From a virus, in the IMG/VR virus record IMGVR_UViG_3300021963_000340, positions 1 to 36,738 of that record: a DNA stretch of 36,738 nucleotides; one strand, given 5' to 3'. The notes beneath the pieces are model-generated. The model was not told the DNA's origin and made no database searches. It worked only from the letters and a program-made list of their open reading frames with translations. This document shows, in pieces, positions 3,072-30,061 of the stretch (within the stretch, counting starts at the first letter, position 1; the number at the start of each line of letters is the position of its first letter). A program made the position numbers and the translations under genes.

Positions 3072-3803
3072 ATGAAAACCATCCTCTTTATCCCCGACAC
3101 GCATTGCCCCTACCACGATGTCCGTGCCTTCGCGCTTCTGGCGAAGGTCGCCAAGAAGATTCGCCCGCACACGATTGTGGTAGGCGGCGACTTCGCGGAT
3201 TTCTACGCGGTGTCGAGCCATGTGAAAGACCCCGCTCGACGCATGACGTTTGAAGATGAGGTCGTCATGACTCGCAAGCTCCTCCGTCAAGTGGAGTCCT
3301 GGGGGGCCACGCGCACGCTCTACATCATGGGCAACCATGAGGACCGGCTCGCTCGGTACATCGCGGAGCAAGCGGAGGAGATGCACGGGATCGTGACCGT
3401 AAACAGCCTATTTGGGTTGACAGACCACGGATGGGAGATCACCCCCTACAAGGATCATGCGGTGATCGGCAAGCTGTACATCACGCACGATCTCGGCAAG
3501 GCGGGACCGAGCGCGGTGAAGGATGCGCTCGCGTCGTACCAGGACAACGTGGTGATTAACCATGTCCACCGGATGCAGTATCTCATTGAAGGCAACGCCA
3601 AGGGGAAGCCCCATGTCGGCGCGGCGTTTGGCTGGCTCGGAGACCGCACGAAGGTGGACTACATGCACAAGATTCGGGCGAATCGGGACTGGGCCTTGGG
3701 CTTCGGGGTGGGCTATCTTGATGAGTCGGGGGTGGTGCATCTGCAACCCGTCCCCCTCGTCGGCTATAAGTGCGTGGTGCAGGGCCAGCTCTTCGTCGGC
3801 TAA
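3072..3803 (+). CDS. Calcineurin-like metallophosphoesterase
   Basis: 243 residues, ATG directly after the previous TAA. All metal-binding blocks of the metallophosphoesterase fold are present: PDTHCPYHD (block 1), VGGDFADF (block 2), GNHEDR (block 3), ITHD and NHVHR (late histidines). It should hydrolyse a phosphomonoester or phosphodiester with two metals. Phage members have been linked to nucleic-acid or nucleotide processing, but the substrate cannot be read here. It is the last gene of the rightward unit and its stop overlaps the stop of the convergent early gene by four bases. Confidence 0.85.
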   Translation: MKTILFIPDTHCPYHDVRAFALLAKVAKKIRPHTIVVGGDFADFYAVSSHVKDPARRMTFEDEVVMTRKLLRQVESWGATRTLYIMGNHEDRLARYIAEQAEEMHGIVTVNSLFGLTDHGWEITPYKDHAVIGKLYITHDLGKAGPSAVKDALASYQDNVVINHVHRMQYLIEGNAKGKPHVGAAFGWLGDRTKVDYMHKIRANRDWALGFGVGYLDESGVVHLQPVPLVGYKCVVQGQLFVG

Positions 3804-23005: not shown

Positions 23006-23983
23006 ATGGCAAGCCCAGGCGCATTTACTGGCTCGACGTTCACTGAGTTAGTGACGACGACCTTCCGTAAGCATCGTGGTCCGATCAAGGACAACTTGAG
23101 CAATCGCAACGCCTTGCTCAAATATATCGAAAAGCGCGGCAATACCAAGCAGATTGACGGTGGACTGTCCATCGTGCAACCGCTGGATTACGCGGCGAAC
23201 GGCACCTATCAGCGGTATTCAGACTGGGACCTTCTGGACGTTTCCGCGTCCGATGTCATCTCGGCGGCTGAATATCAGTGGAGGCAGATTGCGATTAACG
23301 TCGTCGCCTCTGGCCGTGAAATCCGCGTGAACAGCGGGGAATCCCGCATCGCGGATCTGGTCGCGTCCCGCATGAAGAATGCGATTCGGACCTTCCAGAA
23401 CAACTTCTCGTCCGACCTGTACTCCGATGGGACGACCGCGAATCAGATCAACGGTCTGACCGCGATTATCCCTGATACCGTGACTTCTGGAACGGTCGGC
23501 GGCATTAACTGCGCGACCTTCTCGTTCTGGCAGCCGCAGCAGTCTGATGCGTCTACCTTGTCGGTGACGACCAGTGCCACGACCATCGAGAACGGCTTGA
23601 TGCTCCCGTTGTGGCTCTTGCTGGATCGTGGTCCTGACGATCAGCCTGACCTCATCGTGATGGCGAACAACTACTACACCTTCTTTGAATCGTCCCAGGT
23701 GTCGTTGAAACGCTACACGGATGAATCCAAGGCCAATGCAGGATTCTCGACCCTCAAGTACAAGTCGGCTGATGTCATTTTCGATGGCAACAGCGGCATT
23801 GCGACCAGCCATGCGTTCTTCATCAACACCAACTACTTGCAGTTGGTCACGCACCAGGATGCGGATATGGAAGTCATGGACGATATGCGTCCGGTGAACC
23901 AGGATGGCAGCGTCACCCCGATCCTCTGGATGGGGAACTTGACCTGTAGCAACAGAAAATTGCAGGGCAACATCATTGAGTAG
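23006..23983 (+). CDS. Major capsid protein
   Basis: 325 residues, MASPGAFTGSTFTELVTTTFRKHRGPIKDNLSNRNALLKYIEKRG. The N-arm, the E-loop-like WDLLDVSASDVISAAEYQWRQIAINVVASGREI, the long spine helix SRIADLVASRMKNAIRTFQNNFSSDLYSDGT and the domain DLIVMANNYYTFFESSQVSLKRYT are those of an HK97-fold coat family with the order of F-like heads. It forms the capsid shell. Context (scaffold before, decoration after) agrees. No cleavage protease gene is near. Confidence 0.85.
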   Translation: MASPGAFTGSTFTELVTTTFRKHRGPIKDNLSNRNALLKYIEKRGNTKQIDGGLSIVQPLDYAANGTYQRYSDWDLLDVSASDVISAAEYQWRQIAINVVASGREIRVNSGESRIADLVASRMKNAIRTFQNNFSSDLYSDGTTANQINGLTAIIPDTVTSGTVGGINCATFSFWQPQQSDASTLSVTTSATTIENGLMLPLWLLLDRGPDDQPDLIVMANNYYTFFESSQVSLKRYTDESKANAGFSTLKYKSADVIFDGNSGIATSHAFFINTNYLQLVTHQDADMEVMDDMRPVNQDGSVTPILWMGNLTCSNRKLQGNIIE

Positions 23984-24022: not shown

Positions 24023-24526
24023 ATGGCGTACACGAATCAATTCCCAGGTGGACAGGCGATTGCCACCACCTCGACGGAACAGAAGCATCCCCTTGGCACG
24101 ATCACCAAGGGAGTCGATCCGACGCTGGGCGAGGGGGAGTTTATCTATCTCCTCGGCGTCGCTAGCACGGTGGTGGGCTTGGCGGTGTCGTGGAATGCGA
24201 CAACCTACCAGACCACGCTGCTCCCCAGCACGGCCAACTTGTCTACGCCCGTCGCCTGGGCCATGTCGATCAATGTGGCATCCTCCTACGGGTGGTACCA
24301 GATTGGTGGCCTGGTCAAGGCATTGAAGTCTGCGGTCAAGTCCGATCCTGCGGTGAACGCGAATCGCGTCTACATCTCAGGGACGACTGGCCGCGTGATG
24401 CAGACTTCTGCGGCTGGCAAGTGCCTCATGGGTGCGACACGGGCGAACCTGACGACTGTGACCTCAACGACATCGTTGACCACTCTGTCAGTGAATCGTC
24501 CCCACGTTCAGGGCCCGATTACATAG
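24023..24526 (+). CDS. Putative head decoration/stabilising protein
   Basis: 167 residues, AAGGAG six or seven bases upstream. Beta-rich, with TEQKHPLGTITKGVDPTLGEGEFIYLLGVASTVVGLAVSWN and GGLVKALKSAVKSDPAVNANRVYISGTTGRVMQTS. DUF2190-like or gpD-like decoration proteins share this character and position after the coat gene. It would clamp coat subunits on the head surface. Assigned by context and composition. Confidence 0.65.
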   Translation: MAYTNQFPGGQAIATTSTEQKHPLGTITKGVDPTLGEGEFIYLLGVASTVVGLAVSWNATTYQTTLLPSTANLSTPVAWAMSINVASSYGWYQIGGLVKALKSAVKSDPAVNANRVYISGTTGRVMQTSAAGKCLMGATRANLTTVTSTTSLTTLSVNRPHVQGPIT

Positions 24527-24551: not shown

Positions 24552-24581
24552 GGGAGCGGTTCTCGCACGAGGGCCGCTCCC
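24552..24581. terminator. Stem-loop after decoration gene
   Basis: GGGAGCGG (24552-24559) and CCGCTCCC (24574-24581) are perfect arms around a 14-base loop that itself can form CTCG/CGAG. There is no T-run on the plus side, so it could be a weak terminator or a processing or mRNA-stability element ahead of the enzyme gene. Confidence 0.4.
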
Positions 24582-24601: not shown

Positions 24602-26599
24602 ATGCTGCATATTGTGACCATCAACGCTGGCAATTACCTTGGGCGAGGCGTCGAGTACACGAATATCCTCTACGACAGCGTGAACCGAAACCTCCCGCCT
24701 GATACCCAAGCTGAGTTCGTCGTGTTCACGGATTCCCCTGGTGCCTACCACCCCAACATCGTCGTGCGGCCCTTGCCTGGCACGAACGTGCGAGGATGGT
24801 GGCATAAGCTGGCACTGTTCCAGCAAGATCTATTCCCTTTTGGCGACCGCCTCCTCTATTTCGACCTGTCCTGCGTGATTACAGGGAGACTCGACGCCTT
24901 GGCGACCTACGAAGGACCGTTCGCCGCGCTGCGAGACTTCTACTATCCGACAGGGCTGCAATCCTCCGTCATGGCTTGGCGGCAAGGATGCTATACCGAC
25001 ATCTGGACGCAATTTGTGGCACAAGGCTACCCGCAGCACGACCTGGGCGGCGATCAAGTCTTTATCGAGTCCATACTAGGCAGGACGGCGATTCGGCTCC
25101 AAGACCAATTCCCTGATCTCTTTGTCTCGTACAAGCTGCATCCTGGCTTACCCACGAAGGCGTCAGTGGTGGTCTGTCATGGCTCACCGAAGCCGCACGA
25201 ATGCACAGGATGGGTTCCGTCAGTCTGGAAGGTGGGAGGACTGAAGCAAGCCGACCTTGAGGCCGTCTGCAATACACAGCAGGCGACGCTGCTGCGGAAT
25301 ATCGCCCACGCGATGACGCTCCCGTTCCCCTGGTTCGATTTTCAGCCCACGCCTCATACCAGACCCATCAACATCATCGGCGGTAGCCCCTCGCTTGCCC
25401 AGGCGATTCCCGCACTCCATCGCGCTCAGGGCCAGTCAGAGATTTGGGCCACGAACGGGGCATTCAATTTCTTGCGAGCGCACAATCTTCTCGCGGATGT
25501 GCATGTCATCCTCGATGCCAGGCCAGAGAATGCGGCGTTTGTCAGGAACCCTAGCTCGTCCACCCGCTACTACATTGCCTCGCATTGCGATCCGTCTGTC
25601 TTTCAGGCGTTACGGGGGCAGAACGTGACCATCTTCCATTGTCACATAGAGGGGGTCTACGAGCTGGTCAAAGACGAGAAGCTCCGTCCCACGCATCTCC
25701 TCGGTGGCTATACGACCGTGGGCATGAAGGCGGCGCAGCTCGCAGAACTCCTTGGGGCGACGCAGATCAATTTCTATGGGATGGACTCCTGCTATCTCGA
25801 CCAGGTTCACCATGCCTACTCGCAGCCGCAAAACGACGCCGAGGTGGTGCTAGATGTGTTGTATGACGGGCGTGTGTTTCGGGCGGCTCCGTGGATGGTC
25901 GGGCAAGCGCACGACTTTCAGCAGTTCGTCCAGTCCTTTCTAGGGACCGTCGCGGTCGATGGTCATGGGATGCTCGCCCATATCGCGGCCTCTGGCGTTG
26001 AGATGTCTACGTCAGAAATACGAGCCACGGCGATCCTGAGTCGATTGCCTGCCGAGACGGGCCTGCCGATTCACGGCGTCGAGGTTGGCGTGTTTGCTGG
26101 CGATCTCTCTCGACGGTTGCTCGCCCGTCCCGACCTCCATCTCACGATGGTCGATTCCTGGCGTGGAGAGGGAGCGGATTACCACGGAGACTCAGGCGAC
26201 TTCCATGCCACGCTGACGCAACAGGAGCAAGACAACTATTACGAACTGACGCGCACGGTGACGGCATTTGCGGGAGAACGCGGCAAGATTCTTCGCGCCA
26301 GCTCGCAGGATGCCGTGCTGCAAGTGCCTGATGAATCGCTGGATTTTGTCTTTATTGATGCCGACCACAGCTACGAGGGAGCCGCTAGGGACATTGCCGC
26401 CTGGTCGCGCAAGGTCAAGATTGGGGGATTGCTCGCAGGCCATGACTACGAGAATGAGGGCTTCCCAAAGTTTGGGGTCACGCGAGCGGTGAACGAGTGG
26501 TCGGATCGGTCTAGAGCGGCCCTAGAGTTAGGGGATAATTTCACCTGGTTTATGCGTAAAACGGAGGAGATGCCATGCAAGATTCAGTCAGCTCACTGA
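24602..26599 (+). CDS. Three-domain glycosyltransferase-like / DUF115 / methyltransferase fusion
   Basis: 665 residues. Domain 1 (1-240) looks like a GT8/GT-A glycosyltransferase: VTINAGNYLGRGVEYTNILYDSV, GWWHKLALFQQDLFPFGDRLLYFDLSCVITG and GGDQVFIE; the second Asp of the DxD site is Ser (88-90 DLS). Domain 2 (255-460) is DUF115/MptE-like, as in flagellin Maf proteins: INIIGGSPSL, IWATNGAFNFLRAHNLLADVHVILDARPE and LGGYTTVGMKAAQLAELLGATQINFYGMD. Domain 3 (485-655) is a class I methyltransferase (EVGVFAGDLSRRLL, FIDADHSYEGAARDI, GGLLAGHDY). It should build and cap a glycan on a virion or host surface protein. It overlaps the next gene by 25 bases. Confidence 0.75.
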   Translation: MLHIVTINAGNYLGRGVEYTNILYDSVNRNLPPDTQAEFVVFTDSPGAYHPNIVVRPLPGTNVRGWWHKLALFQQDLFPFGDRLLYFDLSCVITGRLDALATYEGPFAALRDFYYPTGLQSSVMAWRQGCYTDIWTQFVAQGYPQHDLGGDQVFIESILGRTAIRLQDQFPDLFVSYKLHPGLPTKASVVVCHGSPKPHECTGWVPSVWKVGGLKQADLEAVCNTQQATLLRNIAHAMTLPFPWFDFQPTPHTRPINIIGGSPSLAQAIPALHRAQGQSEIWATNGAFNFLRAHNLLADVHVILDARPENAAFVRNPSSSTRYYIASHCDPSVFQALRGQNVTIFHCHIEGVYELVKDEKLRPTHLLGGYTTVGMKAAQLAELLGATQINFYGMDSCYLDQVHHAYSQPQNDAEVVLDVLYDGRVFRAAPWMVGQAHDFQQFVQSFLGTVAVDGHGMLAHIAASGVEMSTSEIRATAILSRLPAETGLPIHGVEVGVFAGDLSRRLLARPDLHLTMVDSWRGEGADYHGDSGDFHATLTQQEQDNYYELTRTVTAFAGERGKILRASSQDAVLQVPDESLDFVFIDADHSYEGAARDIAAWSRKVKIGGLLAGHDYENEGFPKFGVTRAVNEWSDRSRAALELGDNFTWFMRKTEEMPCKIQSAH

Positions 26600-27249
26600 T
26601 GGAGAGGAAGTCGATTGCCCCGTTGGTCCGATTTGAGCGACAGACCGTTGAGGACAAAGCTGCCAGCCTTCAGGCAGGGCGAGCCGTCTGCAAAGATGTG
26701 GACTATGCGATTGTGACCCCGCCGTACTCACGAGATGAAGTGTTCAAAAAGGCGACGACGTTCATTCAGGATGTCGAAGCGAAGGGGAAGTTGGGTATTT
26801 ACTCTCCGCAACAGGTCGATCTGATCGTCCGTCAGTACCAAGCCTGGAAGAATGGGCATGAGATGCCTCTCGTCGGCACCCCGATTAAGGGATGGCCGGT
26901 GTTGACCCCTGCCCAGCAAGAGAACTTGATTCGCGTCAATATCCCGACTGTCGAGTATCTGGCCGAGGCCAATGACGAAGGGTTGCGAAACATCGGCATG
27001 GGCGCACTCGACATGAAGCGCAAGGCGATTGCCTGGCTCGCGCAAGCCACCGATAAGGGGCCGCTGACGCAGCAGATGGCGGCGATTCAAGCGGAGAACG
27101 ATGGCTTGAAGATCAGCATTGACACGCTCACGCGGCAAGTCGAAGCCCTGCATAAGGAACCGCTCATGAGTCAGCCTGCTAGCCAAGGGATAGGCATTCA
27201 TGATATTCTCGACGCGCCTGAGCCTCCGGCACGACGCCAGAAACGATAG
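26575..27249 (+). CDS. Hypothetical neck-region protein
   Basis: 224 residues; GGAGGAG before ATG. The block GTPIKGWPVLTPAQQENLIRVNIPTVEYLAEANDEGLRNIGMGALDMKRKAIAWLAQA is a helical motif of a phage family found near capsid and neck genes; it resembles a helix-hairpin-helix (L..xxI.TVEDLA..D...L..IG). The C-terminus is a coiled coil (AAIQAENDGLKISIDTLTRQVEAL). Virion structural role by position. Confidence 0.65.
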   Translation: MQDSVSSLMERKSIAPLVRFERQTVEDKAASLQAGRAVCKDVDYAIVTPPYSRDEVFKKATTFIQDVEAKGKLGIYSPQQVDLIVRQYQAWKNGHEMPLVGTPIKGWPVLTPAQQENLIRVNIPTVEYLAEANDEGLRNIGMGALDMKRKAIAWLAQATDKGPLTQQMAAIQAENDGLKISIDTLTRQVEALHKEPLMSQPASQGIGIHDILDAPEPPARRQKR

Positions 27250-27258
27250 GGAGCGATT

Positions 27259-27972
27259 ATGTCATTATTGTCGATTATCATAGATGTCTGTGGTCGGACC
27301 AACATCCCTGTCCCGACGAATGTGATGGGGTCAATCTCCGACACGCAACTCCTGCAACTCGTGGAGCTGCTAGAAGAAGAAGGCCATGACCTCGCTCGGC
27401 GTGGGCCGTGGCAAGGCATTACCAGCGAGGCCACCTGGTCTACCACCGCCGCCGAAGATCAAGGCGCACTCACCACGCTCGCCACGAACGGGTTTAACTA
27501 CATCAAGAACGGGACATTTTGGGACCGGACAGGGAAGCTGCCGGTACTAGGACCGTTAAGCGACGCCGAGTGGTCGGCCCTCAAGGGACTGGCTACGACG
27601 GGATCACGCTACGCCTACCGCATTCGAGGCGGGAAGCTGCTTATTAACCCCACCCCCACGGCGAGCCTGACCTTCGCCTTTGAGTATGCCAGCAGGAACT
27701 TCATCCTGGGAGTCGATGGCACGACCTATAAATCGGCCTTTACGCTTGATACCGATACCCTGCTCCTGCCAGAGGAACTGATGACGCTTGGACTTCGTTG
27801 GCGGTGGAAGCGTGAAAAAGGCTTGGATTATTCAGAGGATATGCGTACCTACGAAACGCAGGTCAAGGACGCACTCGCCCGCGATGGCGGCAAGCGCACC
27901 CTGTCGATGTCTGAGGGCGGGCGTCCGTCACGGCCAGGGATCTTTGTGCCTGAAAGGAATTGGCCGATATGA
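27259..27972 (+). CDS. Head-to-tail connector / tail accessory protein (gp4-like)
   Basis: 237 residues. LSIIIDVCGRTNIPVPTNVMGSISDTQLLQLVELLEEEGHDLARRGPWQGITSEATWSTTA, a central TFEYASRNFI-like beta region and LMTLGLRWRWKREKGLDYSEDMRTYETQVKDALARDGG are the pattern of P22 gp4 / T7 gp11 tail accessory factors. It would sit under the portal to lock DNA in. Its TGA overlaps the ATG of the nozzle gene. Confidence 0.75.
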   Translation: MSLLSIIIDVCGRTNIPVPTNVMGSISDTQLLQLVELLEEEGHDLARRGPWQGITSEATWSTTAAEDQGALTTLATNGFNYIKNGTFWDRTGKLPVLGPLSDAEWSALKGLATTGSRYAYRIRGGKLLINPTPTASLTFAFEYASRNFILGVDGTTYKSAFTLDTDTLLLPEELMTLGLRWRWKREKGLDYSEDMRTYETQVKDALARDGGKRTLSMSEGGRPSRPGIFVPERNWPI

Positions 27973-29617: not shown

Positions 29618-30061
29618 ATGCTGTTAGCTGAATCTTGCACTACTAAAATCATTGACAAAGACCATGCCAGGGTCGGACATTGGCTTGAGCAGCAACGGGC
29701 CTGCCGGTATACCGACGCCTCGGTGTGCATTGGCTTGGAGCGCAACGGCGAGCTAGTCGCGGGCATCCAGTACGATCAGTACAACGGAGCCTCGATGGTG
29801 GCGAGCATCGCGGTCACAGGCCGCCTGACCCCTGCCTTCCTGCACTATATCTTCGAGTACCCCTACATCGAGTGCGGCATTCAAGTCGGGCTACTCTACG
29901 TGGGGAGCGGGAATCTCAAGTCTCAACGATTCGTCGAGAAGCTAGGGTTCGTCCGTATCGCCTCCATTGAGGACGCTCACCCAGACGGGAAGCTCCTACT
30001 CTATCAACTCAGAAAAGAAGACTGTCGTTTTCTTGCAAGGAGATCCCGCTATGGGTGGTAG
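29618..30061 (+). CDS. GNAT-family N-acetyltransferase
   Basis: 147 residues. The central strand VCIGLERNGELVAGIQYDQYNGASMVASIAVTGRL, LHYIFEYPYIECGIQVGLLYVGSGNLKSQRFVEKLGFVRIASIEDAHPDGKLLLYQL fit the GNAT fold; GSGNLKSQRFVEKLGF is the acetyl-CoA-binding helix and strand. It transfers an acetyl group from acetyl-CoA; similar genes occur among virion genes of podovirus-like phages with unknown substrate. It overlaps the next gene by eleven bases. Confidence 0.75.
   Translation: MLLAESCTTKIIDKDHARVGHWLEQQRACRYTDASVCIGLERNGELVAGIQYDQYNGASMVASIAVTGRLTPAFLHYIFEYPYIECGIQVGLLYVGSGNLKSQRFVEKLGFVRIASIEDAHPDGKLLLYQLRKEDCRFLARRSRYGW

Follow-up and report, generated by a model that had tools for sequence, protein, structure and literature searches.

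Glycosylation of virions by phages, phage glycosyltransferases such as PmgQ and the Maf enzymes of bacterial flagella are already known. Maf enzymes place nonulosonic acids on serine or threonine residues of flagellin surface loops without a known sequon, and they are promiscuous for the donor sugar, accepting Neu5Ac and Kdo (PMC11339370). Mycobacteriophages Che8, Corndog and Myrna encode glycosyltransferases that modify their own capsid and tail-tube proteins (Freeman et al. 2023, as cited in PMC12363180). Here we describe a 665-residue protein that joins a GT8-like glycosyltransferase (GT), a Maf-like DUF115 domain and an O-methyltransferase (MT), encoded in the viral record IMGVR_UViG_3300021963_000340 of IMG/VR (36,738 nucleotides; "the window" refers to this whole stretch). 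Its gene follows that of a small virion protein, and in related phages the two change together. We favor, with moderate confidence, a role as a phage-encoded enzyme that both attaches a glycan to the phage's own virion, on this small protein, and caps it with a methyl group.

Each of the closest described systems resembles part of the fusion. Maf flagellin O-glycosyltransferases (Magnetospirillum 5mu5, Clostridium botulinum Maf, and PseD) share its PF01973 domain and give the best fold match to residues 226-464, but at 16% identity; their flanking domains are replaced in the fusion by the GT8-like domain and the methyltransferase, and their neighbor is flagellin rather than a phage virion gene. 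The GT8 enzymes LgtC, GlyE and glycogenin share the fold of residues 1-214 (Z 17-18) and the conserved D88 and H193 motifs, whereas the fusion has DLS in place of DxD and carries DUF115 and MT domains in addition. The phage glycosyltransferases PmgQ of P1, HdmD of P7 and those of phrog_1962 are 28-30% identical to the GT domain (E ~1e-14), but the match covers only approximately 30-36% of the query, with no DUF115 or MT. For Che8, Corndog and Myrna, the text consulted reports no Maf-type DUF115 fusion; activity was shown there, whereas here it is predicted from the genes. For residues 468-655, the sugar O-methyltransferases MeT1 (M. hassiacum) and NovP are among the closest structural matches, although the top set also holds catechol-type enzymes (SafC). 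Myxococcus phages Mx8 and Mx9 encode homologous capsid and small virion proteins in the same order, but the slot occupied here by the fusion is empty in both. Neither a three-domain fusion involving DUF115/MptE-like domains in phages, nor its placement at the decoration gene, nor joint exchange of such a cassette with a virion protein was described in the literature searched.

Domains of the fusion protein

The gene is an uninterrupted open reading frame (ORF) on the plus strand with an ATG start (Table 1). An AlphaFold model built on a 54-sequence alignment (pLDDT 91.8, pTM 0.81) was used in place of a single-sequence prediction that reached a pLDDT of 37.5. Family matches and this model together give good support to an enzyme of three confidently modelled domains. 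Residues 1-214 have the GT-A fold of LgtC and glycogenin that is expected of GT8 enzymes, with structural alignment (VIA-align) giving Z scores of 18.2 for LgtC, 18.0 for glycogenin and 17.8 for GlyE over approximately 200 residues. Residues 18-210 matched the PHROG glycosyltransferase family phrog_1962 (E 3.7e-26), and a Pfam search of the protein gave no match to Glyco_transf_8.

Residues 251-400 matched the MptE-like/DUF115 family of Pfam (PF01973; E 5.6e-17, 62.5 bits against a gathering cut-off of 34.6). The domain around them aligned with Magnetospirillum Maf (5mu5) over 222 residues (Z 22.8, rmsd 3.0), and less well with the M. jannaschii HPPK/MptE protein (8sd5, Z 16.8). The central Maf_flag10 (PF01973) domain of Maf, with its sialyltransferase-like fold, is therefore present, but only residues 244-503 of the Maf chain align, and the N-terminal degenerate Rossmann and C-terminal helical domains of Maf have no counterpart. 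The last domain matched Methyltransf_24 (PF13578, residues 493-616; E 1.5e-15, 58.4 bits against a cut-off of 26.3) and carries EVGVFAG at residues 494-500, an S-adenosylmethionine motif of the E-x-G-x-x-x-G type. It aligned with MeT1 at Z 17.7, and its fold neighbors include both sugar and non-sugar O-methyltransferases.

An earlier reading of this DNA, made without database searches (the sequence-only reading), had proposed a GT-A, a DUF115 and a class I methyltransferase domain in this order, and Pfam, PHROG, the AlphaFold model and the fold matches all agree with it. It had named the lack of a GT-A or DUF115 fold as grounds for giving up the idea, and structure searches found both. Its label "Maf/MptE-type" holds for the DUF115 fold, with Maf the nearer of the two relatives.

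Motifs and selection in the GT domain

The sequence-only reading had also noted an altered DxD motif, which the alignment confirms. Forty-nine of the 54 aligned sequences have DLD at this position and five, including the window protein, have DLS, so that this protein lacks the DxD metal-binding motif typical of GT8 enzymes. The motif changes twice on the tree. Further variants (DLI, DLW and DLP) suggested for single loci by pattern reading were discarded, as the alignment gives DLD for L120 and L138, and L164 lies outside it. D88, D151 and H193 are invariant across the alignment. In sequence, the H193-G-x-P-K/R-P motif resembles the metal-binding histidine motif that ends GT8 enzymes.

Purifying selection acts on each of the three domains. 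The ratio of nonsynonymous to synonymous substitution rates (dN/dS) was 0.03-0.07 for the GT, 0.07-0.08 for the DUF115 and 0.10-0.14 for the methyltransferase domain, values that are rough because dS is high (~1 or above) and partly saturated.

The fusion is a real gene with exchangeable parts

The same fusion, at 85% identity, was found in two contigs from two other metagenomes (L002 and L003), and the three-domain order recurs in more divergent environmental contigs. This excludes an assembly fusion of two adjacent genes, a possibility that the sequence-only reading had raised while suggesting a search for the same order in other phages. A scan with a GT-DUF115 profile added 80 viral loci, most with the pair in a single ORF and many with a methyltransferase as well. 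GT-DUF115 fusions thus recur across dozens of contigs from environmental phages, and almost all of them follow the major capsid and small virion genes. No match to the DUF115 domain alone was found in isolate phages by tblastn, a DUF115-MT relative matched isolates through its methyltransferase part only, and no isolate in the phage collection searched carries DUF115 in the slot. Among environmental Mx8-like phages, the arrangement can be called neither unique nor rare, being one form of a modular cargo site present in dozens of them.

Among 54 distinct fusions, all contain DUF115, 32 contain Methyltransf_24, seven contain the FkbM-type Methyltransf_21, and seven have an extra N-terminal GT2-type domain. 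The methyltransferase part is swappable, being Methyltransf_24, FkbM or absent. Contents of the slot range from GT-DUF115-MT, GT-DUF115 and GT2-GT-DUF115 to DUF115-MT lacking GT and DUF115 with methyltransferases encoded by separate genes after it; the latter include C-methyltransferases (Methyltransf_13/23/14), and an FdtA sugar isomerase occurs once in the set. In a few loci (L159, L161, L162 and L164) DUF115 precedes GT, or each is encoded by a gene of its own. These architectures suggest that the cassette consists of an enzyme core joined to variable parts that finish the sugar.

Five loci (L007, L026, L059, L066 and L082) have DUF115 followed by several genes including methyltransferases, with C-methyltransferases in L007, L066 and L082. 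This content looks like a deoxysugar C-methylation cluster. The preceding decoration protein in these loci belongs to a different family (161-173 aa), and in L059 DUF115 is matched once more away from the slot, approximately 6.7 kb upstream of the decoration gene.

A cargo slot in the Mx8-like lineage

Judged by its genes, the phage is Mx8-like. Relatives of its capsid protein are found in Myxococcus Mx8 and Mx9, a Bradyrhizobium phage and Stenotrophomonas phage BUCT555; Mx8 itself has been placed in the P22-type radiation of podoviruses (PMC10386132). The small virion protein shares 44% identity with the product of the gene directly after the Mx8 capsid gene, which is annotated as "major virion structural protein". 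Its position and annotation suggest that it is a decoration protein, as we call it here.

The position downstream of the decoration gene is held across phages with capsids less than 30% identical to that of the window. We sampled 86 loci, mostly by capsid protein rather than by cassette, with some contigs present under two identifiers. DUF115 was in or near the slot in 34 of the 86, ten of them with GT, where a few contigs ending before the slot were scored as lacking DUF115. On the capsid tree, cassette class requires 22 changes and therefore switches often. The slot is a modular cargo site in this lineage.

The decoration protein switches with the cassette

The C-terminal half of the decoration protein falls into three subtypes that follow the cassette. 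Phages with GT-DUF115 have a Thr/Ser hairpin resembling ANLTTVTSTTSTVVVTINRP, those with DUF115 but no GT have a AVASATAGRTTV-like form, and those free of DUF115 have a AIDTPSTGLAEMEM-like form. Serine and threonine make up 29%, 20% and 16%, respectively, of the last 50 residues. Among capsid-selected loci, longer (~240 aa) and unrelated short (151-157 aa) decoration forms never occur with DUF115; among the distant loci from the GT-DUF115 profile scan, a few decoration proteins have 216-265 aa, and the neighbor in L147 has 156 aa. When cassette class was assigned by nearest neighbor in 64 loci, a sample that over-represents fusion loci, the decoration C-terminal half was correct for 62, the N-terminal half for 56 and the capsid protein for 49.

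We then compared pairs of loci with capsid identity of 80-99.5%, in which individual loci contribute to several pairs. Median decoration identity was 32% where cassette class differed (141 pairs) and 64% where it was the same (161 pairs). The flanks showed no such effect: median identities for differing and same class were 47 and 48% for the upstream gene, 51 and 53% for the gene just 3' of the cassette, and 62 and 63% for the tail gene. In disjoint sister pairs, decoration identity was at most 48% in all eight pairs of differing class and at least 57% in 10 of 11 pairs of the same class (p 0.0009), the eleventh being L069/L076 (6%), which was retained although its value probably reflects the choice of a wrong ORF, an additional gene standing ahead of the decoration gene in L069.

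One pair preserves the exchange itself. The DNA of L042 and L045 is approximately 95% identical until 163 nt into the decoration gene (L042 4319, L045 2072), where identity breaks off sharply, and resumes at approximately 92% 8 nt ahead of the matched start of the next gene. The exchanged block consists of the remaining decoration gene and the DUF115-MT gene. The decoration protein co-switches with the cassette; its outer neighbors do not.

A search of the decoration protein against solved structures gave nothing significant. In DUF115-free phages such as L020, L012 and L061, this protein is approximately 75 residues longer, and the extra residues might stand in for a glycan as a surface feature.

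Proposed function and alternatives

By analogy with Maf, the DUF115 domain, which all forms of the cassette share, would start an O-glycan, the GT8-like domain extend it and the methyltransferase cap it. The initial residue, which may be a nonulosonic or Kdo-type sugar drawn from the host in CMP-activated form, would be transferred to serine or threonine in the C-terminal hairpin of the decoration protein. The GT8-like domain would then add a second hexose, although the two transferases may act in the reverse order, and O-methylation of the outer sugar would form the cap. The acceptor, the sugars, the order of steps and catalysis itself are all predicted from the domains and their setting. Several observations weigh against this proposal. 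Decoration type also varies among DUF115-free phages, and therefore diversifies for other reasons as well. In L017-L019, which have DUF115 alone, and in L159, with its reversed order, the decoration C-terminus is of the DUF115-free type. The DLS change may impair metal binding by the GT8 domain, and no sugar-nucleotide synthesis gene was recognized in the window, which is annotated in part. Linkage could also move the cassette along with the 3' end of the decoration gene, with no pairing of enzyme and substrate, if the conserved capsid gene and the gene downstream are favored recombination sites; this could explain part of the co-switching, but the gene that borders the cassette at its far end shows none.

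An unlikely alternative is that the fusion acts on flagellin or on glycans at the host surface, for instance to prevent superinfection or change a receptor, with its place in the virion cluster reflecting late expression only. Bacterial DUF115/Maf and GT8 enzymes (Maf, LgtC) work on flagellin and lipopolysaccharide, and temperate phages often carry genes that modify the host surface. Co-switching confined to the adjoining virion protein is unexpected for a host target, however, as is a slot fixed across very divergent phages, and the annotated part of the window showed neither a membrane anchor nor a flagellar gene. The sequence-only reading had allowed either a virion protein or host glycans and flagellin as the target; the former is better supported because the adjacent virion gene, and not the outer neighbors, switches with the cassette.

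Slightly less probable still is glycosylation of another virion protein, such as the major capsid or a tail protein, with the decoration gene carried along as the immediate upstream neighbor of the fusion. Capsid and tail-tube proteins are the known acceptors in mycobacteriophages. Against this, the gene at the far end of the cassette does not co-switch, the exchange point falls inside the decoration gene, and near-identical capsids occur with different cassettes or none (L042/L045, 99%). It is improbable that the GT8 domain is an inactive scaffold binding acceptor or sugar, leaving DUF115 and MT as the active parts with a virion or host target: the DLS of five sequences would fit loss of activity, but the domain is under strong purifying selection, with D88, H193 and D151 invariant and DLD kept in other fusions. 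Despite the Pfam name and the match to 8sd5, an MptE-like pterin diphosphokinase in small-molecule metabolism is very improbable, given that Maf rather than MptE/HPPK is the closest fold relative, that weak NCBIfam matches of relatives are to the flagellin modification protein PseD, and that the fused and neighboring genes are glycosyltransferases and methyltransferases.

Glycosylation and capping of the decoration protein, if true, would mean that flagellin-type O-glycosylation has been recruited to capsids in a large group of uncultured podoviruses, with Maf-type transfer, elongation and methyl capping in one polypeptide matched to a named acceptor. Such a two-gene system, an enzyme and a 167-aa acceptor, would let acceptor choice by Maf-type enzymes be tested directly. 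More tentatively, Mx8-like phages may carry interchangeable "capsid coat" modules, block exchange of which switches the capsid glycan type. Each module could comprise a decoration C-terminus matched to its own Maf-type enzyme, and the enzyme could be DUF115 alone, DUF115-MT, GT-DUF115, GT-DUF115-MT, GT2-GT-DUF115 or a multi-gene C-methyl sugar cluster. The surfaces of phage capsids would then differ in a serotype-like manner, with block exchange as the switch.

Genomic neighborhood

The gene order is capsid, small virion protein, fusion, phrog_20268 gene, tail protein and a long phrog_5107 gene, which places the fusion between head and tail genes (Table 1).

Table 1 Features of the fusion locus in the window
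Feature	Position	Strand	Remarks
Major capsid protein, Mx8-like	23006..23983	+	phrog_9953
Small virion (putative decoration) protein, 167 aa, proposed acceptor	24023..24526	+	phrog_29386
Ser/Thr-rich C-terminal hairpin ANLTTVTSTTS, residues 141-151 of small virion protein	within 24023..24526	+	
Intergenic hairpin, virion protein gene / fusion gene	24552..24581	+	13-bp stem, tetraloop, no U-run
GT8-like / DUF115 (Maf-like) / O-methyltransferase fusion gene	24602..26599	+	665 aa; Pfam, PHROG, AlphaFold model, fold matches
GT-A glycosyltransferase domain, residues 1-214	24602..25243	+	phrog_1962; LgtC/glycogenin/GlyE fold
DxD position, here D88-L-S90	24863..24871	+	DLD in 49/54 aligned sequences
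H193-G-x-P-K/R-P motif, GT domain	25178..25195	+	H193, G194, P196 invariant in 54/54
DUF115 / Maf-like glycosyltransferase domain, residues 226-464	25277..25993	+	Pfam and fold match
Class I O-methyltransferase domain, residues 468-655	26003..26566	+	Pfam; fold matches MeT1, NovP, SafC, other O-methyltransferases
Gene next after fusion, overlap 25 nt	26575..27249	+	phrog_20268; not co-switching, served as control
Tail protein, right flank of slot	27259..27972	+	phrog_6013

The intergenic hairpin is strong and recurs in L002 and L003; the same gap in L077 and L096 holds hairpins of different sequence, with a UUCG loop. It is possibly a processing or attenuation site; as a guess, an mRNA hairpin between the decoration and enzyme genes might hold the enzyme below the level of the structural protein. 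Promoter and terminator scans gave no excess over chance.

Elsewhere in the window, the tail region encodes a GNAT-type acyltransferase (29618-30061, phrog_4470), which may be another virion-modifying enzyme. GNAT/acyltransferase genes are similarly placed in Mx9, Bradyrhizobium ppBjS10J-1, BUCT555 and ctMlz233. A metallophosphoesterase-like gene (phrog_221) is found at 3072-3803.
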